Of a stretch of 57,374 nt of DNA, positions 42,300-51,896 are shown one piece after another. Position numbers and translations under genes: made by a program. Position 1 is the first letter of the stretch. Every line of letters begins with the position of its first letter. Source of the DNA: a bacterium (GTDB lineage: Bacteria > ARS69); assembly GCA_025774805.1 (NCBI GenBank), contig JALGZR010000057.1:1-57374 (forward strand). Direction: 5' to 3'. The notes beneath the pieces are model-generated. The model did not search any database. It was not told the origin of the DNA and was given only the letters and a program-made list of their open reading frames with translations.

Positions 42300-43517
42300 A
42301 TGAACCGAACCGGAATCGTCATCGTCGGCGGGGGGGTCTACGCCGCGAAGCTGGCCGAAGGACTTGCCCGGAGGCTGTCTCGGGCCTCGGTGGACCTGAA
42401 TCTGGTGGCCCGACGTTTCGAGCGTCTGCAGGTCATTGCCCGCCACGCCGCCCGCCGGGTCGAGGCCGTTCGGCCGACGTGGCGTTTGCGGGCGTATCGC
42501 GTCCCGAGCGATGCCCTGCCCGGAGCGGCGCTGGTCGTCCTGCTCTTTCGCGTCGGTGGTTTAGGGGCCCGGGCCCACGATGAGTCCTTCCCCGCGTTCG
42601 GCGGTCTGGTGGGAGACGAGGGAATCGGCGTCGGCGGAATGGCGAACGCCTGGCGTACCGTTCCAGTTCTTGAGGAGATGGCGCAGGAGCTTCGCCGCCA
42701 CGCCCCCGGCGCCCGCGTCGTCAACATGGTGGCCCCCCTCGGAATCACGACCCGGCTCCTCTTGGACGAGGGCCTCGACGCGGTGGGGATCTGCGAGCTT
42801 CCCCTGGTGACGCGCGAGCGATTGATCGGTTCCGGCTCTGGGAAGGGCGGTCTGGCGTACGCGGGCCTCAACCACCTGGGTTGGTTCTGGGCGGTTGGGG
42901 AAGCGGGAGAGCGGGCCCTCGCCACGGGTGTCGAAAAGGGCCGGGTCGACCGCGAGGTGCTGGAAGAGTTCGGGGCCGCGCCCTTGCATTACTACTATGA
43001 CGTTTTCGACCCGGCGGCGGGACGCCGCCTGGGGAGGGTGCGGCGTCCCGGCCGCGCCGAGGAACTCGCCGTATTGGATGCGGAGATCTTCGATCGGCTG
43101 AGACGGAATCCGGGCGCGGAGGTCTCTGCCTTTGAACAACGGCCGACACCGTGGTTCGACCGGGCGCTGATCCCCGTGATCTTCGCTTTGACGACCGATT
43201 CCGGCTTCGCGAGCTTCGCCAACGTCCGCAACGGGTGCCTCGTTCCCGATGTGCCGGCGACAGGGGTCGTCGAAGTGGAGGCGGAGGTGAGCATCGGCGG
43301 TGTACGGGCGCTCGCGCCCGGACCGGTTCCCGGTCCGGTCTCGCGGTTCCTCCGAGCGGTAGGCGAATCGGAGGCCATGACCTATCGGGCCGCCCGCGAG
43401 CGGGATCCCTCGCGCCTGATCGACGCCATTCGGGCGTTGCCACTTCCCATTTCGGAGCGTCACGTGCCCGGTCTCGTGAAGGAGATCTCGACGGACTTGG
43501 AAGGACCCACCGCATAA
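42300..43517 (+). CDS. Glycoside hydrolase family 4-like protein
   Basis: A 405-residue NAD- and Mn-dependent GH4-type enzyme. TGIVIVGGGVY is the Rossmann start; FRVGGLGARAHDE, EGIGVGGMANAW, the metal Cys in GICELPL and metal His in AGLNHLGWFW follow the family order. GH4 enzymes split phosphorylated or acidic glycosides by an oxidation-elimination route. The protein is slightly short and the N-terminal motif is diverged, so the substrate is unclear. Divergent from the GT-C gene, with 182 bases between them; it may act on sugars from the nearby ABC importer. Confidence 0.85.
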   Translation: MNRTGIVIVGGGVYAAKLAEGLARRLSRASVDLNLVARRFERLQVIARHAARRVEAVRPTWRLRAYRVPSDALPGAALVVLLFRVGGLGARAHDESFPAFGGLVGDEGIGVGGMANAWRTVPVLEEMAQELRRHAPGARVVNMVAPLGITTRLLLDEGLDAVGICELPLVTRERLIGSGSGKGGLAYAGLNHLGWFWAVGEAGERALATGVEKGRVDREVLEEFGAAPLHYYYDVFDPAAGRRLGRVRRPGRAEELAVLDAEIFDRLRRNPGAEVSAFEQRPTPWFDRALIPVIFALTTDSGFASFANVRNGCLVPDVPATGVVEVEAEVSIGGVRALAPGPVPGPVSRFLRAVGESEAMTYRAARERDPSRLIDAIRALPLPISERHVPGLVKEISTDLEGPTA

Positions 43518-43755: not shown

Positions 43756-45870
43756 ATGCGAAGCGCACGGCGGACGGAGTATGCCACGCCGCTGAACATT
43801 GACTCCGTGACCGATCGAATTGCAGGCCTCTCGCGGAGTTACCTCCTATCTGCAACCGTGACCTGGCTCGGCATTCTCGCTGCGGGAGCCCTCGGTTGCG
43901 CCCGAGACATGGATTCGGACGTCGCAGAGATCGTTCTCCACCGCGGAGTCGTCGAGATCGATACCGAGGAGGGCGAGACGTGGGCACCCGGGAGCGCAGC
44001 CGATCGAGGTGACGACTGGACCGGTTCACCCTTGCCGAGGGACGCGACCGTGAAGACGCGCTCGGACGGTCGGCTGAAGGTGGCGCTCGGGGGGACGTAC
44101 GTGTGGATCGACGGCGAATCCGAGCTGCAGATCTTGGGGCCCTCCGACGTGCGGCTCCGGCGGGGAAGAGTCGGCGTGTCCAAACGTGGAACGGAGAAAC
44201 CTTTTCGGCTTCTGACCCCTTTCGGGATCGTGGAGCAGGATGCGGAAGTCGTGGGCGCGCTTACCGCATGGGCGACCCCGGAACGACTCCTGGTCGCATG
44301 CCTGGACGGCGAGATGACTTTGAGCGATCTCCGACGCGAGCGGGTCCGGATCGAGGCGGGACGCTTGGGCGTCGTGACTGCTGGATGCCTCCTCGCTCCC
44401 GAGCGCGCGGCGGATCGGGAGACGTTTGCCGCCTGGATGAGGCACTTCGACGCCGTCGGACCGGCAGAGAAAGCGATGGATGCCGGGGTCTGGCGGCCGA
44501 GGGTCTCCCGGAAGTCTGCCCTCTCCACCGGAACCCAGCTAGAGGAGTTGTCGCTGGAAGTCCTGCTGCGCGGTCCGTTGGTCGCGGTGCGATCGCGGGC
44601 CAAGCTCCGCATCCCTCCCGGCGAGACGATTCCGAGCAGACCCCAGCCGCGGGACCTGGTCTTCCCGGCTCCGGACGCTGCGTCGGTGATCGTCGATTCC
44701 CCGGCCGGGCCGAGTACAGAATTGACCGTGCAGATCGCGTCGGTAAGTGTGATGGAGCCCACCGGCGAGCGCTTCTGCTTTGCTCTCCTCCCGGGGGCAT
44801 GGACGACCGCGCCGATGAGGATCGTCTCGGTGACAGTGGAAGGCCGCGCGGTCGGCGGCATCCAGGAACTGGAAAGTAACCTTCGCGACCTCCGGGTGGA
44901 ACACGACCGCCTTGGAGTCTCGGCGATGTGGCGGGGCGGAGATGTTTCCCTGAGCAGACCCCTGGTGTTCGCCGTGACGTTTCGGGAGCCGGCGGGGGCG
45001 GATCTCGTTCTCCTCGCGGCAGGGGAGGGCGGAAAGACCGCGGGGGGCACCGACGAGGCGGTGGTCGGAGCCTGGGACGTGAGTCAACCGGACGCTGACC
45101 GGAGACCCTTCGCGACCGTAATCCTGGGGGTGGATGCCACCGGCGGCTACGGTCCGAACGGGCTCGATACCGTGTGCACGTTGGCCGAAGCGCTCATCGA
45201 CCAGCTCCTTCCTCACCGGTTCGGAGGATTGCTGCTGTACGACGGCGCCGAGCTCACGGTGCTCCAATACCCGAGTCCTCGCGAGATCGAGGGAATTGCG
45301 CGCGACATTCGGGCGGCGCTCTGGTCCGTGGTCCCTGCGCCCACCGCGGGCGACGGAACGGCCTTTCTTCGACGCGCGCTGGATGCGGAGCGCTTGGCCG
45401 AGCCGGGCGAGTACTTGGTGCTCATCACCGACGGGAATCCACGGCTCGCGGAGGAGGTCGGTGCCCTGGCACCGGGTCTTGATCTCGCGGGGGCTCTCGT
45501 GGTCGAGATGGGCCTGGGCGCACCGGCGAGCGGGTGCCGGCCGGACAAGCCACACCCGGGAGTGGACGTTCTCCGCTTGGGGCCGGAGGTGGACCCGGTC
45601 GCGGCGGCCCAAGCCCTCCTCGGCAATCTCCCTTGGCGGACAGGCGGGTCGAGGCGTTTGACCATCGGCGAGGGGGGAGAGGTCGTGCGTGCCCTGCCGT
45701 CCCGCTCCACCTTCGGAAACCGGCCCGTCGCCGCCTTGGCGAGGTTCGAGAAAGGGGTGAACGCAGCGATCGTCGGGCTGGCGACCGGCGGGAATCGCGC
45801 GACCCCCGCGACGCAGTGGGAGGTCGCGCTCGACCGGTCGGAGGCCTTCGGCCCGGTGGGGGTCCGATGA
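43756..45870 (+). CDS. FecR-domain lipoprotein with C-terminal VWA-like domain
   Basis: A 704-residue exported protein. A 27-residue leader precedes a hydrophobic stretch ending in the lipobox AAGALGC. Residues 50-210 are FecR-like (VETDTE-type start, [34 protein letters not shown]). A middle beta-rich segment (about 250-420) may be VIT-like. Residues 455-590 resemble a von Willebrand A fold: [12 protein letters not shown] stands where DxSxS is usual, with [11 protein letters not shown] and [11 protein letters not shown] as the other metal-site strands. It overlaps the sugar transferase gene by ATGA, so the two are made together. A role in sensing or assembling a surface glycan is inference. 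Confidence 0.7.
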
Positions 45871-46688
45871 CACACGATCGAGTGGGTCGAGACGGCCGCG
45901 ATGTCGAAAAGGCGCAGGAAGCTCCGGTTTTGGAGACGCCGCCGGCGGGCGGCACGCGCCCCTTGGAGGATCTGCCTTCCCCGGACGATCCGGCCTTCCC
46001 GTATCTGCCACCTTCGGACGAGGTCCGTGAGAGGTACCGATTCCTCATTGAGCGAAAGGACCCTCTGGAGGTGCGGCTGATCAAGACCGTCTTCGACAAG
46101 GTGTTCTCGGGCTGCATACTGCTGGCGCTTTCGCCGCTGTTCGTCGTCGTCTTCATGGCCTACCTCGTGGACGGACTGATCCATTCTGAGCACCGCGGCT
46201 CGGTGTTCGCCGCCTACGTCGCCATCTCCCGCGGACAGGAGTTCGCCAAGTACAAGTTCCGGATTGCGCGGGAGGACCGCATCGACCAGGAGGGAAAGCG
46301 GAAAGGAGACTGGCACGCGTTTCCGTCCGAACGGGATCCCGAGAACCTCACTTGTGTGGGCCGAGTGCTCAAGAAGTACTATCTCGACGAACTTCCCCAG
46401 CTCTTCAACATCATGCGGGGGGACATGAGCGTCGTCGGGCCGAGACCGCTGGCCCGGCATCACTACGAAAGGGATGTGGAGCAGGGAAACGTCGCCCGGA
46501 AACTGATCCGAGGAGGGCTGTTCAGCGACGTCCACACGCGGAAGGGTACCCGGACCTTCCGATTGCCCGACCTGGAGTACAAGTACCTGGTCCAGTATAT
46601 GGAACGGAGTAGCACTTCCCTGTTGATGTTGGACCTGAGGATCATCGCGAGAGGCCTGCGTATGATGCTGCAGGGTAAAGGCTACTAG
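45867..46688 (+). CDS. Monotopic phosphoglycosyl transferase (bacterial sugar transferase, WcaJ/PglC class)
   Basis: A 273-residue protein with a single membrane segment ([20 protein letters not shown]) followed by the catalytic domain: [10 protein letters not shown], then [20 protein letters not shown] and [11 protein letters not shown]. The Asp-Glu pair in LDELPQ is the catalytic dyad that moves a sugar-1-phosphate from a nucleotide sugar to undecaprenyl phosphate. It lacks the four-helix N-terminal region of large WcaJ proteins but has a 50-residue acidic N-terminal tail. Coupled to the FecR/VWA gene, 46 bases before the cupin gene. It probably starts assembly of a polysaccharide or glycolipid. 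Confidence 0.9.
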
Positions 46689-46734: not shown

Positions 46735-47148
46735 TTGAGTTCATCGAAGAGAGAGGCGGGTCGGGCCGAACGTATGGCGAGACCCGTTCGCAACATTGCC
46801 CACTCCCGATCGATCCCTTCCATTGAGATCGTGGAAGATCACGGAGGCGAGGGGCCAATCCGGTTCCGTCGTCTCTTCTCTTCGGAAGACTGGCCGGGGC
46901 CGATCGACTTCGTCGACTACACGGTCGTACCTTCGGGGTCCTCGATCGGAGTCCACGGGCACGAGGGGAACGACGAGATCTATCTAGTTGTGACGGGTGA
47001 AGCTACCGTGACGCTCGACAGCAGGGAGCATCCCGTGACGTCAGGGGACGTCATCGTGACGCCGTCCGGAAGCTCCCACGGTCTCCGGAACGACGGATCG
47101 AAACCTCTCATCATGTTCGTCGTGCAAGTCGGGCACGGAACGCCATGA
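46735..47148 (+). CDS. Cupin-domain protein heading the cyclitol-like operon
   Basis: A 137-residue single-domain cupin. HGHEGNDEIYLVVTG fits HxH-x4-E-x6-G exactly and GDVIVTPSGSSHGLRN fits G-x5-PxG-x2-H-x3-N, so a metal site of three His and one Glu is complete. TTG start at 46735 follows a GGAGGG site; an ATG at 46774 would be an alternative. The stop overlaps the next ATG. Likely an isomerase, epimerase or ligand sensor for the sugar or cyclitol; exact role unknown. Confidence 0.85.
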   Translation: MSSSKREAGRAERMARPVRNIAHSRSIPSIEIVEDHGGEGPIRFRRLFSSEDWPGPIDFVDYTVVPSGSSIGVHGHEGNDEIYLVVTGEATVTLDSREHPVTSGDVIVTPSGSSHGLRNDGSKPLIMFVVQVGHGTP

Positions 47149-49229
47149 ACTCCGGGCGGGAACCGGGGCGGGTTTCCGAGGCGTCGCCATACGGTGCCGC
47201 AGACGTCCTCGTCGCACATGTCGGTGGCGGGTTCCTTCGTCTTTCGTCCGTACGGAAGGACGCCCGCAGAGTTCGGCTCGAGCGGCAGGCCCGGATCGGG
47301 GGAACCGGCGGGGAAGATCCCTGTGTCCTGTGCGCGCGCATCACGAAGGACCTCTTGGAGGAATCAGCGCTCTCCACCGTCGTATTCGTTTGGGCGGACG
47401 GCGAGCCCGCGGATCCACCTTTGAACCGGTGGATCGAGGCGGTGTCGACCTCCCGCAGCGGCCTCCGGGTCCGAAGCCTCGATGAGCTTCTCGCGGTGGC
47501 CCATGCCTTCGTGCATAGGACGAACCGGACCCTGATCGTCCGATTCGGCGAGACGATTCAGAAGGCCGGATTTGCGTCGAATGATGGCATGATCCAGGCA
47601 CTCTCGATGGAAGATCCTGAGGAACCGGGAGGCCATCGGCGTCTGGGCGATTACTCGGAGGCGGGTCTGGGGAGATTTGTCCGGGAGTCCTTGGCGGGAT
47701 TCGACGGGATTCGGCGCTCCCGACTGGTCGACGTCGCAGGGGGACGCGGTGAGGCTGTGTCGTACGAAATGGTCTGCGACGCGATCGAGCTCTATGGCGA
47801 TACTATGGCCCAAAGGGTCCTGGAGGAGTTCCTCGAACCGCTGGCGATTCACCTCCGACGTCAGTGCCGACGCGGCGCGATCGCTCAGGTCGTTATCACG
47901 GGAGACCTTGTTGCCGAGCATCTCGCCTGCATCAAGAACGTGCTCGCGAAGAAGAACGCGCCGTTCGGCGACTGGGAGTACACGGCCGTTCAGCTCGAGC
48001 GGGGGGTCGCCATTGGTGCGGGGTTCTTTGCGGGTCGGGATCGAGGGCATCCGGGGGTGTCCCTGGACAAGGTGGGAGCCGATTCGGTTCTCCGCCTCGC
48101 GGCGGATCGGCCCATCGAGTATTGGGTCCGTCAGACTCACGTGCCCTGTTTCTCCGACGATTGCGATGTCTTGCCTGAAGTCGTGGGGAGCAGGCCGATT
48201 CTTGCCGTGGTGGACGGCAATGTCGAGCGGATCTACGGGAAGAGAATCCGCGCTTACTTGAGAGAACGGGTGAACGTTGTCGGTTACCTCGAACTGTCGG
48301 TGAGCGAGCGTGTGAAGGACCTTGGCACAGTCGAGCATATCTGCGCGAAGGCGAAGGACCTGGAATTCCGGAGAGACGGCGTATTCGTGGGAATCGGGGG
48401 AGGCGTCCTACTCGACATCGTCGGTTTCGCGGCCTCGGTGTTCCGGCGGGGGGTCGCTTTCGTGAGGATTCCCACGACGCTGGTCGGTCTCGTGGACGTG
48501 GGAATGGGAATCAAACAGGGGATTAATTTCTGCAAGACCAAGAACCTGATTGGATCGTTTTACCCTCCTATGGCGACGATCAACGACCGGAGGTTCGTCG
48601 CGACGCTCGGGGAGAGAGAGATTCGTTGCGGTTTCGCGGAAACCTTGAAGATGGCGCTGATCCGGAATCAGAAGCTGTTCTCTCTTCTCGAGAGGAACGC
48701 CATGGAACTCGTGGACTCGAGGTTCGAGCGTCCGCCGGACGTGGCGGAAGAGGTGATGATGGTAGCGTCGAGGGACATGATGGAAGAGTTGCAGCCGAAC
48801 CTCTTCGAGGATGACCTTGAACGATTGGTAGACTTCGGGCACACGTTCTCCCCGACGATCGAGCTGCACACCGAGTACGCGATCGCGCATGGCGAAGCCG
48901 TTGCAATGGACATCTACCTCTCGTGTCTGCTGGCGGTCGACCGGCGGGCGTTGTCGGTGAAGGACCTGAATCGGGTGCAGCGACTCTACCAGAAGGCCGG
49001 CCTGAAAACGTGGGCGACCTGCTGCCCGACGGAGGAGCAGCTTTACGACGGCCTGAGGGATGTGAAGTCCCACCGAGGGGGAAGGCTGAACCTCGTGGTT
49101 CCTGCTGAGATCGGGAAAGGCGTGTTCCTCCTGGACGTCAAGTACCGGGAAATCGCGATGGCCGCCGGGATCGCCCGGGAGGAGTCTGAAAGAGCGGAAG
49201 CGGAGCGTGGTCCGGAGAACGTCTCGTGA
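47145..49229 (+). CDS. Degenerate ROK domain fused to 2-epi-5-epi-valiolone-synthase-like sugar-phosphate cyclase
   Basis: A 694-residue two-domain protein. Residues 330-680 are a dehydroquinate-synthase-fold cyclase. VRIPTTLVGLVDVGMGIKQG, NLIGSFYPP, ELQPNLFEDDLERLVDFGHT and AIAHGEAVAMD match EEVS-type rather than DHQS-type signatures. The zinc ligands Glu499, His566 and His582 are present. Residues 1-305 align by eye with the ROK kinase encoded next door: VLVAHVGGGFLRL stands for ALDIGGT, RSLDELLAVA for VNDITAAA, QVVITGDLVAEHL for FIFIGGLAL, and GVAIGAGFFA for CLVGAGMVA. The phosphate loops and zinc motif are lost, so it is probably a non-catalytic partner domain. EEVS converts sedoheptulose 7-phosphate into a C7 cyclitol. 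I know no characterised fusion like this. Confidence 0.85.
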   Translation: MNSGREPGRVSEASPYGAADVLVAHVGGGFLRLSSVRKDARRVRLERQARIGGTGGEDPCVLCARITKDLLEESALSTVVFVWADGEPADPPLNRWIEAVSTSRSGLRVRSLDELLAVAHAFVHRTNRTLIVRFGETIQKAGFASNDGMIQALSMEDPEEPGGHRRLGDYSEAGLGRFVRESLAGFDGIRRSRLVDVAGGRGEAVSYEMVCDAIELYGDTMAQRVLEEFLEPLAIHLRRQCRRGAIAQVVITGDLVAEHLACIKNVLAKKNAPFGDWEYTAVQLERGVAIGAGFFAGRDRGHPGVSLDKVGADSVLRLAADRPIEYWVRQTHVPCFSDDCDVLPEVVGSRPILAVVDGNVERIYGKRIRAYLRERVNVVGYLELSVSERVKDLGTVEHICAKAKDLEFRRDGVFVGIGGGVLLDIVGFAASVFRRGVAFVRIPTTLVGLVDVGMGIKQGINFCKTKNLIGSFYPPMATINDRRFVATLGEREIRCGFAETLKMALIRNQKLFSLLERNAMELVDSRFERPPDVAEEVMMVASRDMMEELQPNLFEDDLERLVDFGHTFSPTIELHTEYAIAHGEAVAMDIYLSCLLAVDRRALSVKDLNRVQRLYQKAGLKTWATCCPTEEQLYDGLRDVKSHRGGRLNLVVPAEIGKGVFLLDVKYREIAMAAGIAREESERAEAERGPENVS

Positions 49230-50266
49230 CGAAGAGAGTTGTGGCGCTGGACATCGGAGGGACCTTCGTCCGGTCGGCGATCGTCGACGGGGACGGGGCA
49301 TGCGGCCCGATCCATCGGATGAAGGCGCCGAACTTCCTGGGGAGCCCCCGGGCGGACAGGTCGAGGTTGCAGGGCGAGCTCGTGGCGTTGGTGGCCCGGT
49401 CCGTGACGGACGTGGCTATCGAGGCCGGTCTGGAGGCGCCTCTGGTTGTCGGGATCTCCTTTCCCGGACCGGTCGACCGAAGCGGCCGCGTCGTGAGCGC
49501 GCCCACGCTGTGGGGAGCGGGCGCGGCCGCGTTCCCCCTGGGGCGCCGCCTGAAGGAGAAGCTGAACTCTGCCCATGTCGTCGTGGTGAACGACATCACT
49601 GCCGCAGCCTGGTACTACTCTGACCTAGTGACGGCGAAGAGATTCTGTGTGGTCACGGTGAGCTCCGGGATCGGAAACAAGGTTTTCGATCGCGATCATC
49701 CTCGCGGGGTCCTGATCTCAGAAGACGGGTACGGCGGCGAGATTGGCCACGTGACGGTGGATGATTCCCCGGATGCGCCCATCTGCGATTGCGGCGGACG
49801 GGGGCACCTGGGTGGGATCGCTTCGGGGCGAGGGCTGGAGAGGCTGGCGAGGAAGCGGGCCGCCCGAGAATGCGGTCAGCATCCGGAGTCGCCCGTCTTG
49901 GCTGTCGCGGCCCGCAATCCCGACGCGATCACAAATGAGGAGTATCTGGTCCCGGCGATCCGGGCCGGAGACGACTTCGCGTCGAGCGTACTCGAGGAGG
50001 CTACGCGTCCGCTCGTGCATTGCCTCGCGACGATGGCACTCGGGATCGGGATCGAGCAGTTCATATTCATCGGAGGACTGGCCCTGTCGATCGGTGAGCC
50101 TTACCTGGAAACCGTGAGGAGAATCTGGTCGGAGCGGGCGAGCTACCACATGTGGGACGAGCGGCCGGACACGTTCTTCGTTTTGGGACGAAGCGGCGAC
50201 GAACCCTGTCTCGTAGGGGCGGGAATGGTCGCTCTTCGGCACTACGCCGGAGGTTCGGGATTGTGA
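49226..50266 (+). CDS. ROK-family kinase, candidate cyclitol/sugar kinase
   Basis: A 346-residue ROK kinase. ALDIGGTFVRSAIVDG binds ATP, VNDITAAAW holds the catalytic Asp, SSGIGNKVF, GGEIGHVTVD and the zinc motif CDCGGRGHLGGIASGRG follow. The third cysteine of the usual CxCGxxGC motif is His here. ROK kinases phosphorylate C7 cyclitols in validamycin- and acarbose-type clusters, so the position right after an EEVS-like cyclase suggests a cyclitol kinase. The GTG start overlaps the previous stop and its own stop overlaps the next GTG. Confidence 0.9.
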   Translation: MTKRVVALDIGGTFVRSAIVDGDGACGPIHRMKAPNFLGSPRADRSRLQGELVALVARSVTDVAIEAGLEAPLVVGISFPGPVDRSGRVVSAPTLWGAGAAAFPLGRRLKEKLNSAHVVVVNDITAAAWYYSDLVTAKRFCVVTVSSGIGNKVFDRDHPRGVLISEDGYGGEIGHVTVDDSPDAPICDCGGRGHLGGIASGRGLERLARKRAARECGQHPESPVLAVAARNPDAITNEEYLVPAIRAGDDFASSVLEEATRPLVHCLATMALGIGIEQFIFIGGLALSIGEPYLETVRRIWSERASYHMWDERPDTFFVLGRSGDEPCLVGAGMVALRHYAGGSGL

Positions 50267-51141
50267 GGCGGAAGCCCGGTCCACCTTCCTCGGGCAAGTA
50301 CTTCGCTCGTTGCATCCTCGAGGAGACCATATGCGATCGGATTCCTCAGGAAGAGTCTCCCCTGCTGCAAAAGGTGGGAAGTCTGTCGTCGTACTGGTCG
50401 GCGAGGATGGCTGCCTGTGGGCGCCCGAAGATCAACGTGGTCGATGAAGTGCTGGATCGAAGACTCGTCGAGCGCGGGCAGACCATCTATCTCGACAATG
50501 GCTCGACGTTCGTCTACCTGGCGATGCGGATCCTCGAGCGTGCCTCCTCGCTCGCCCCCCTGCGCGTGGTCACGGGGAACTCCGTGATCCAGCTCCTTTG
50601 GATGATACACCCGAGCGCCCGACTGATCAGTTTGGAGTGCATAGGGGGGGACTACGTGCCCGATCACTCCTGCACCGGAGGGCCGGGGGAAGCGTGGCTC
50701 TCCTCGACGCGGTTCGTCCCGGACATCGACGTCGCGTTTCTTGGAGTGTCTCGCCTGGACCCCGGAACGGGACTCTACGCGAGAATCTCGGACGTCCTGG
50801 AGGTCAAGAGGTTGGCGATCGAGCGGGCCCGGAGAGTGGCGGTGCTCCTCGACGAGACGAAGGTGGCGTCGGGATCGCAACGCGACGAGCTGGTGGGACA
50901 CCTGGAGATTCGTGCGGCGGATCTCTGCGTCTCTCCCGTGGACAGACGAGAGGTTGTGCGGCCTGTCACGATGTTTGTTGGAATGTGCACAGAAGTAACG
51001 AAAGGCGAGACCGAGCGCCGTGATGCTCTGGCGAGGCTCTTGCCGGAAGGCATGGGGCTGGAAGTTTCGGTGCGCAACAATCGCGTCCTGGTCCTCGCCC
51101 GGGAGACTGCGGAGAGCCGAGAGAGGGGCGGCGGGCCGTGA
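50263..51141 (+). CDS. DeoR sensor-domain protein lacking a helix-turn-helix
   Basis: A 292-residue protein. Residues 75-270 follow the DeoRC pattern: GQTIYLDNGSTFVYLAMRIL, LRVVTGNSVIQL, DIDVAFLGVSRLDPGTGLYA, and KRLAIERARRVAVLLDETKV. In DeoR regulators this ribose-5-phosphate-isomerase-like domain binds a sugar phosphate. The 70 N-terminal residues do not look like the usual DeoR winged helix. It may be a true isomerase or a ligand sensor acting through a partner. GTG start at 50263, in frame and overlapping the ROK stop, was chosen over upstream in-frame codons inside the ROK gene. Position in the operon suggests a sugar-phosphate substrate. Confidence 0.75.
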   Translation: MRRKPGPPSSGKYFARCILEETICDRIPQEESPLLQKVGSLSSYWSARMAACGRPKINVVDEVLDRRLVERGQTIYLDNGSTFVYLAMRILERASSLAPLRVVTGNSVIQLLWMIHPSARLISLECIGGDYVPDHSCTGGPGEAWLSSTRFVPDIDVAFLGVSRLDPGTGLYARISDVLEVKRLAIERARRVAVLLDETKVASGSQRDELVGHLEIRAADLCVSPVDRREVVRPVTMFVGMCTEVTKGETERRDALARLLPEGMGLEVSVRNNRVLVLARETAESRERGGGP

Positions 51142-51896
51142 CGAAGGGAGACCTCCCAGAGAGAAGACGTGGAGTTGAAGCCGGGGCCCCGTATCTCGCG
51201 TATCTGGCAAACTACGACGAGTACCGAACGAAGGGATGGAAAAGGATCCAGAATCAGGGGTTCGCTCCGGATGCGATCCTCGCGGACGACGTCTCCGGCA
51301 GGAGGGAGGACACGCGATACGGTGTCACCATCGTCGCAAGGCCTCCCGCGTCAGTACGCGACGTGATCCGGAGGATCCAGGTGAGGCTGCAGCGCATTGA
51401 CGCCAGCCAGTACTTTTATCCCCTCGGGGACTCGCACCTGACCGTCCTCGAGGTTTTCCAGGGCCGGTCCCGGATGCCGGACGCGGATCAGGTTCGTCGG
51501 ATCAATGCCGCGGTGCGCGCTGCAAGTGCGGATACGCTCGCCCCGAGGCTGATTGACGGACGCATCGGCTTCAATGAGAGCACCGTGACGCTGACGTGCT
51601 TCCCGGATGATGATCGGCTGGACATGCTGAGAGACCGGATTGCGGCCGAATTGTCGGATGCAGGCATCTTCAGGGAGCCGAGGTACCTGAGAAAGACGGC
51701 CCACGTCACCTTCGTGCGGTACATCTCCGAGGTCCGGGAGATAAGCGACTGGGTCGAGTCGCTTCGGCAGGCGCAGGCGGTCGTGTATCCGGTCGTCTGG
51801 GAGATGAACAGGGTGTCCGTGACCTCGGGGGCGACGTGGTACGGTAGGAGGGAGCGCGTCGAGGAGCACGGTCCGTTCGCGCTGAAGAAGGCCTGA
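51138..51896 (+). CDS. 2H phosphoesterase-like (LigT/2'-5' RNA ligase fold) protein
   Basis: A 252-residue protein with two H-x-T-x motifs, GDSHLTVLEV and KTAHVTFVRY, spaced about 95 residues apart as in the 2H phosphodiesterase superfamily. The first 45 residues (APYLAYLANYDEYRTKGWKR) are an extension. 2H enzymes open 2',3'-cyclic phosphates or form and break 2'-5' bonds. As the last gene of a cyclitol-like operon it might act on a cyclic phosphodiester of the product; this is speculative. The GTG start overlaps the previous stop. It ends 12 bases before the convergent deacetylase gene. Confidence 0.8.
   Translation: MTKGDLPERRRGVEAGAPYLAYLANYDEYRTKGWKRIQNQGFAPDAILADDVSGRREDTRYGVTIVARPPASVRDVIRRIQVRLQRIDASQYFYPLGDSHLTVLEVFQGRSRMPDADQVRRINAAVRAASADTLAPRLIDGRIGFNESTVTLTCFPDDDRLDMLRDRIAAELSDAGIFREPRYLRKTAHVTFVRYISEVREISDWVESLRQAQAVVYPVVWEMNRVSVTSGATWYGRRERVEEHGPFALKKA

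Follow-up and report, generated by a model that had tools for sequence, protein, structure and literature searches.

The subject of this report is a candidate operon for a C7-cyclitol phosphate, which lies on the forward strand at positions 46735 to 51896 of contig JALGZR010000057.1 (GenBank assembly GCA_025774805.1; GTDB lineage Bacteria, ARS69). The stretch analysed, called the window below, has 57,374 bases and is one whole contig, taken from a genome of 5.1 Mb assembled in 284 pieces. An earlier note, made from the DNA letters alone, had proposed an undescribed C7-cyclitol-type operon of five genes here, and the list of open reading frames (ORFs) together with Pfam places all five genes where that note had put them:

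46735 to 47148, + strand: metal-type cupin, proposed cyclitol(-phosphate) epimerase (Cupin_2, 7e-18; H74, H76, E81, H115)
47145 to 49229, + strand: fusion protein of 694 aa (ORF call)
47145 to 48149, + strand: N-terminal domain of the fusion, a degenerate ROK domain (pseudo-kinase; residues ~18-303, hhalign against a ROK profile)
48150 to 49229, + strand: sugar phosphate cyclase domain of the sedoheptulose-7-phosphate-cyclase side, in a clade of its own (best PDB entry 4p53, ValA; clade support 99/95)
49226 to 50266, + strand: ROK kinase with intact motifs, proposed C7-cyclitol 7-kinase, GTG start (Pfam ROK, 1e-25)
50263 to 51141, + strand: stand-alone DeoR C-terminal (phosphosugar-binding) domain without a helix-turn-helix (HTH) part (Pfam DeoRC, 2e-14)
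51138 to 51896, + strand: 2H phosphoesterase with HLT and HVT motifs, GTG start (weak Pfam match; motifs kept in the ortholog at locus L033)

The claim that all these genes overlap by four bases holds for the four junctions, provided that the starts at 47145, 49226, 50263 and 51138 are used. The DeoRC ORF spans 50152 to 51141, and it is an in-frame GTG at 50263 that yields the overlap; the cupin starts with TTG and has an alternative in-frame ATG at 46774.

The cyclase half matches DHQ_synthase (5e-33) and DHQS_C (4e-22) in Pfam. Among solved structures its closest sequence is 4p53, the 2-epi-5-epi-valiolone synthase (EEVS) ValA, with 221 bits, followed by desmethyl-4-deoxygadusol synthase (DDGS; 184 bits), AroB enzymes (at most 133 bits) and deoxy-scyllo-inosose synthase (DOIS; 93 bits). 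An AlphaFold2 model of this half is confident (block means 77-97 over residues 311 to 690) and resembles ValA with Z 50.1 (root-mean-square deviation 1.5 over 354), DDGS with 49.2, dehydroquinate synthases (DHQS) with at most 43.8 and DOIS with 36; judged from the model, ValA and DDGS are tied by fold, as their Z gap is below 1. The inspected metal and catalytic positions are retained in the window cyclase. At the two sites which we take to be N268 and H275 of A. nidulans DHQS, the N and H of AroB are D and P in the window, as in ValA, while the residue beside the conserved active-site lysine is Q in the window cyclase and in four of the five clade members inspected, H in L039 and T in ValA (L and G numbers denote loci and genomes of our data set).

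A quick tree of 108 rows groups the window cyclase with 82 other rows similar to sedoheptulose 7-phosphate (SH7P) cyclases and apart from 25 AroB rows, which include the separate AroB present in the window genome itself. In a second tree of 43 rows, calculated with bootstraps, it is split from AroB with 100/100 support and joined by ten rows from Eremiobacterota, Acidobacteriota and L033 (99/95), outside a clade of 16 rows (100/98) made up of ValA, DDGS (5tpr) and enzymes of leaf-nodule Burkholderia. This tree covers ValA, DDGS and AroB, was built without rows for 2-epi-valiolone synthase (EVS), EboD, DOIS and aminodehydroquinate synthase (aminoDHQS), and gave a long-branch warning for L001 and the DDGS row. 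On these sequence comparisons, the cyclase is a member of the SH7P-cyclase (EEVS/DDGS) side of the superfamily and not of the DHQS or DOIS side. An AroB or DOIS identity was ruled out by the bit scores, the D and P residues, the fold and the separation from the AroB clade; placement with the dehydroquinate or deoxy-scyllo-inosose synthases, which the earlier note had named as counter-evidence, was looked at and is not seen. The term 'EEVS-like' used there is right as to the superfamily side and to ValA as the nearest structure, and overstated in that the window clade is separate from the characterised EEVS enzymes. Because the clade stands outside EEVS and DDGS, the product of the cyclase cannot be named, and since the sequence is not found within the EEVS clade, the operon, though it may work like a C7-cyclitol pathway, is not filed as EEVS.

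A search of genome contigs for related cyclases gave 469 confirmed candidates, and the best 80 of them, ranked by similarity, underlie the counts that follow; L034 was dropped, as it is identical to L033 throughout its 12,179 bases, leaving 79 loci. Within 4 kb of these cyclases a cupin was found at 39 loci, ROK at 35, a glycoside hydrolase family 4 (GH4) protein at 10, and DeoRC and 2H at one each, against zero for each of the five at 20 AroB control loci, one of them the AroB of the window genome. Many of the 79 are loci of related Streptomyces, and the linkage counts are thus of non-independent events. Chance linkage of cupin and ROK with the cyclase was ruled out by the AroB controls. Around the cyclases of the window clade the association is dense (of 10 loci, all 10 have ROK nearby, 7 have GH4 and 6 a cupin), and the metal ligands H74, H76, E81 and H115 of the cupin are conserved among 30 cupins. 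In whole-genome searches at E <= 1e-55, the phylum of L032 has the cyclase in 7 of its 149 genomes, and that of L039 has it in one of 297, which is L039's own genome. At E <= 1e-42, nine of 386 relatives have a match, namely the window's genome, three on the SH7P side (G195, G348 and G248) and five on the AroB side; four genomes of the same family have no cyclase match at this threshold and no DeoRC or 2H match. At one further locus (L136) the cyclase stands beside UbiA-like, methyltransferase-like and TIM-barrel-like genes, read by eye, in an arrangement similar to the ebo operon.

Three genes ahead of the cupin extend the picture upstream:

42300 to 43517, + strand: GH4-type NAD-dependent enzyme (6-phospho-glucosidase family), cyclitol-cluster branch (Pfam Glyco_hydro_4, 7e-23)
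43756 to 45870, + strand: protein of 704 aa between the GH4 gene and the sugar transferase; its membership of the unit is uncertain
45867 to 46688, + strand: polyprenyl-phosphate sugar (glycosyl-1-phosphate) transferase (Pfam Bac_transf, 5e-29)

The GH4 gene ends about 3.2 kb ahead of the cupin. Its product groups with cluster GH4s from 13 loci in a clade of 14 (SH-aLRT 96), outside which eleven GH4s from other genomes fall; the window row is a long branch in this tree, and the short L133 fragment was left out. A GxCELP-type motif is common to the window GH4 and the cluster GH4s, those of the leaf-nodule Burkholderia loci included, so that the cluster proteins have C-E (C-K in L080) where the eleven outside ones have C-N, C-D, C-S or C-H. 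The closest PDB entry is 5c3m, a 6-phospho-beta-glucosidase. As judged from tree and motif, the GH4 gene about 3 kb upstream is part of the same gene set and was missed in the earlier note.

The sugar transferase ORF is listed from 45534; from the ATG at 45867 it overlaps the stop of the 704-aa gene (45870) by four bases, and its end lies 46 bases from the TTG of the cupin. The 704-aa protein directly upstream is without a Pfam or NCBIfam match and looks FecR/VWA-like by eye. The span of 46735 to 51896 given earlier is thus correct for the five genes and too short as the limits of the unit, which is longer upstream (the sugar transferase, and the GH4 gene of the same set). Downstream, a polysaccharide deacetylase and a GT4 glycosyltransferase are convergent to the operon. 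A promoter and terminator scan gave nothing above shuffles.

The two ROK-related parts of the operon differ in their state of preservation. Hallmarks of the ROK family are DxGGT, a catalytic ND and the zinc motif CxCGxxGC. The separate kinase adjoining the cyclase is recognised as ROK by Pfam (1e-25) and has DxGGT, N122-D123, GE-x-GH175 and C187/C189/H194 all in place, the last zinc ligand being His instead of Cys in 24 of 24 aligned ROK proteins. It keeps the catalytic residues, and a kinase role on the cyclitol is proposed. The fused N-terminal half gives no Pfam ROK match, and its likeness to ROK is visible by profile comparison only: against a profile of 24 proteins (the window kinase and 23 from cyclase loci, >100 bits, length 280-420, L034 dropped), residues 18-303 align colinearly in hhalign with probability 82.5, E 1e-5 and a score of 44.7, compared with at most 19.9 for 30 shuffles and at most 20.2 for six other window sequences. 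DE stands opposite the catalytic ND, and neither DxGGT nor the zinc motif is preserved. The fused half is therefore a degenerate and probably dead ROK domain, a pseudo-kinase, so the 'ROK-cyclase fusion' of the earlier note survives as a ROK-derived half and not as a recognisable kinase. The structural model of this domain is of low confidence (block means 27-73), and the fold-search results are filled by the cyclase half only.

Cyclases with an N-terminal extension of similar length occur at L032, L033, L131 and L133, and a shorter one at L132. A profile built from five sequences matches the N-domain of the window weakly and colinearly (25.3, versus at most 19.8 for 40 column shuffles) and gives no match to ROK; the L032 and L033 N-domains score near or below shuffles against ROK, and no ROK origin could be demonstrated for any of these extensions. 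Other fusions were observed. At L031:8238-10451 (G248, a 9.2 Mb genome) an intact-looking ROK kinase is fused to the cyclase, with a phosphomannomutase-like gene and a zinc-type dehydrogenase as neighbours, and at L030:9084-10811, in a low-GC genome, a HAD-phosphatase-like domain is fused to an SH7P-type cyclase near a VOC-like protein (neighbours at both loci read from sequence).

The DeoRC and 2H genes are the rarest members of the set. Of 13 genomes searched, three contain each of them: that of the window and two metagenome-assembled genomes (MAGs) that share the L033/L034 contig, and both times they stand beside the cyclase. Asked whether the five genes co-occur elsewhere, as the earlier note had suggested checking, the search returned the full set, long cyclase included, on this one other contig, reordered as 2H-DeoRC-cupin-cyclase-ROK and differing from the window also by an RmlD-type short-chain dehydrogenase/reductase (SDR) gene upstream and by having no GH4 match on the contig. 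The identical contig is binned in both a Syntrophaceae MAG and an Ignavibacteriales MAG, and its host can therefore not be named. No HTH family was found by Pfam in the DeoRC proteins of the window and L033, and a DeoR domain that lacks the part for binding DNA is unusual in a biosynthetic operon and can be tested directly. In Pfam the 2H protein matches 2_5_RNA_ligase2 only weakly, at 3e-4 and thus under the gathering score, its HLT and HVT motifs are both kept in the L033 ortholog, and Foldseek with a model of mean confidence (pLDDT) 50 lists 2H enzymes in its top rows, which is consistent with the assignment and not proof of it. Searches with DeoRC and 2H against PDB sequences gave no significant match. 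The 6-phosphogluconolactonase fold is related to that of DeoRC. On a Streptomyces clavuligerus plasmid (L112:6076-9005), a gene annotated as 6-phosphogluconolactonase overlaps a ROK gene, which is followed by a sedoheptulose 7-phosphate cyclase.

DeoRC and 2H could also be co-transferred neighbours outside the pathway, for instance a sensing or nucleotide-repair pair. They stand beside a cyclase on one other contig only among the listed loci, and outside the window's genome the 2H profile has a hit in one of 372 genomes (G205), at a locus with no cyclase match nearby and no match for the other window proteins tested. The two copies are however highly diverged (29% identity each for DeoRC and 2H between window and L033) and keep both genes overlapping on the operon strand despite the different gene order, which makes mere co-transfer rather improbable in our view.

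Taken together, we put the probability that the locus is a variant C7-cyclitol (carbasugar) phosphate operon at about 60%. Under this reading the cyclase domain would convert sedoheptulose 7-phosphate to a valiolone-type ketocyclitol, the substrate class being suggested by the clade and the active-site residues. We infer the steps beyond the cyclase from the partner genes. Like the ROK-like kinases AcbM of acarbose and ValC of validamycin, which carry out the matching step (PMC9200736), the ROK kinase would re-phosphorylate the exocyclic hydroxyl; the 7-phosphate so formed is the carba-analogue of a hexose 6-phosphate. The metal cupin may stand in for the epimerases that other pathways use and epimerise the ketocyclitol (phosphate), a role proposed from genomic linkage and metal ligands only. 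Enzymes of the GH4 family carry out NAD-dependent oxidation and elimination on 6-phospho-sugars, and because a cyclitol 7-phosphate is a carba-analogue of these, the GH4-type protein might oxidise, epimerise or dehydrate the 7-phosphate. For the fused pseudo-ROK domain, a structural or ligand-sensing role within the cyclase is probable. Among the weakest and speculative steps, the DeoRC domain might bind or isomerise a phosphosugar and the 2H enzyme might open a cyclic phosphate or phosphodiester; equally speculatively, the polyprenyl sugar transferase may transfer the product to a lipid carrier. The full scheme, in which the cyclase feeds a cupin-ROK-GH4 pathway, a DeoRC-fold enzyme and 2H finish the phosphocyclitol and the product is displayed at the cell surface as a carbasugar on a polyprenyl carrier, is unlikely as a whole. 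In plainer terms, the gene block probably makes a ring-shaped sugar mimic by means of a cyclase whose branch is neither that of the known valiolone enzymes nor that of the sunscreen ones; in several bacterial phyla, helper genes like those seen here are found again next to such cyclases.

Several observations weigh against assigning the locus to C7-cyclitol phosphate synthesis. The window clade lies outside the one that holds EEVS and DDGS, its mark is Q instead of T beside the conserved active-site lysine, and we know of no characterised enzyme in it. For the DeoRC-2H part there are two instances. Among the ten proteins scanned between 42300 and 54321, Pfam and NCBIfam showed neither an aminotransferase nor a nucleotidyltransferase nor a VOC epimerase, and a homolog of the polyprenyl sugar transferase is absent from the 8 kb around each of the 79 other listed cyclases (best 80 of 469). 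The last result bears on the 'surface decoration' of the earlier note, which is left with the co-transcribed sugar transferase and the adjacent glycan genes as its sole basis and is not supported by linkage. Its statement that the usual partners are replaced agrees with the scanned neighbours, but relatives that share this core have retained a DegT aminotransferase or a nucleotidyltransferase.

The cyclase could also be an ordinary EEVS, acting in a reduced kirkamide/streptol-like or acarbose-like pathway with the aminotransferase and nucleotidyltransferase elsewhere in the genome. The EEVS-like D and P residues fit this, as do the cupin, ROK and GH4 genes common to the leaf-nodule Burkholderia loci (L092 also with DegT and Gfo/Idh) and the DegT and nucleotidyltransferase genes at three relatives each; the supported separation of the clade from ValA, the DeoRC-2H addition and the lack of DegT among the scanned neighbours speak against it and make it somewhat unlikely. 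A cyclase that takes another sugar phosphate as substrate and forms a carbocycle other than C7, its EEVS likeness being shared ancestry only, would agree with the deep placement outside EEVS and DDGS and with the T to Q change. ValA-type residues at both sites that differ between ValA and AroB, and the close fold match to ValA, render this quite unlikely. A second dehydroquinate synthase with a shikimate-type or regulatory role, suggested by the 3-dehydroquinate synthase models that are the best NCBIfam rows (all below the curated cut-off), is highly improbable given the replacement of the AroB-specific N and H by D and P, the 100/100 separation and the separate AroB in the genome.

The C7-cyclitol phosphate operon, if so read, defines a clade of sugar phosphate cyclases that is well supported and apparently uncharacterised, and whose substrate can be tested. 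It also points to the cupin and the GH4-type enzyme as common steps of C7-cyclitol pathways that are without an assigned role, in leaf-nodule symbionts as well, and a kinase pseudo-domain fused to a cyclase is unusual and open to direct test. Our literature search found no paper linking a cupin with EEVS terms or DeoRC or 2H terms with cyclitols, and GH4 appears with valiolone or kirkamide in no paper among the matches listed.

Among known systems, the ebo operon with its EboD is comparable in having a sugar phosphate cyclase, the product being known in neither case, and differs from the window in its partners, which are of UbiA, TIM-barrel and phosphodiesterase type (PMC5133447). The EEVS-led pathways of validamycin (ValA, ValC) and acarbose (AcbC, AcbM) share with the window a cyclase of the same superfamily side and a ROK-family kinase. 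The window cyclase belongs to another clade, however, and the window adds cupin, GH4, DeoRC and 2H, whereas the aminotransferase and nucleotidyltransferase of those clusters are both missing from the ten window proteins scanned. The uncharacterised Eremiobacterota and Acidobacteriota loci (L032, L035, L036, L039, L131-L135) have the same cyclase clade, ROK in all and GH4 and cupin in most, but no DeoRC or 2H match. DegT aminotransferases (L035, L132, L133), nucleotidyltransferases (L035, L036, L131) and, in several, SDR genes suggest that activated amino-cyclitols are made there.

The leaf-nodule Burkholderia loci (L080, L092, L109 and L110), which we take to be streptol/kirkamide loci, resemble the window in their cyclase, ROK and same-clade GH4, and L080, L092 and L109 also in a cupin match. 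Unlike that of the window, their cyclases (L092, L109) belong to the EEVS and DDGS clade and lack a long fused N-domain, the loci have no DeoRC or 2H match, and L092 has DegT, Gfo/Idh and HAD genes, the first two absent from the scanned window proteins. In Ca. Paraburkholderia kirkii (L092:10993-11844) the ROK frame is split into two ORFs, with a longer single one in related symbionts. The operon is hence not undescribed as a whole, as the earlier note had it: its cyclase-ROK-GH4-cupin core is a recurrent module overlapping these symbiont loci. What is new are the clade of the cyclase, its fusion to a pseudo-kinase and the added DeoRC and 2H genes.

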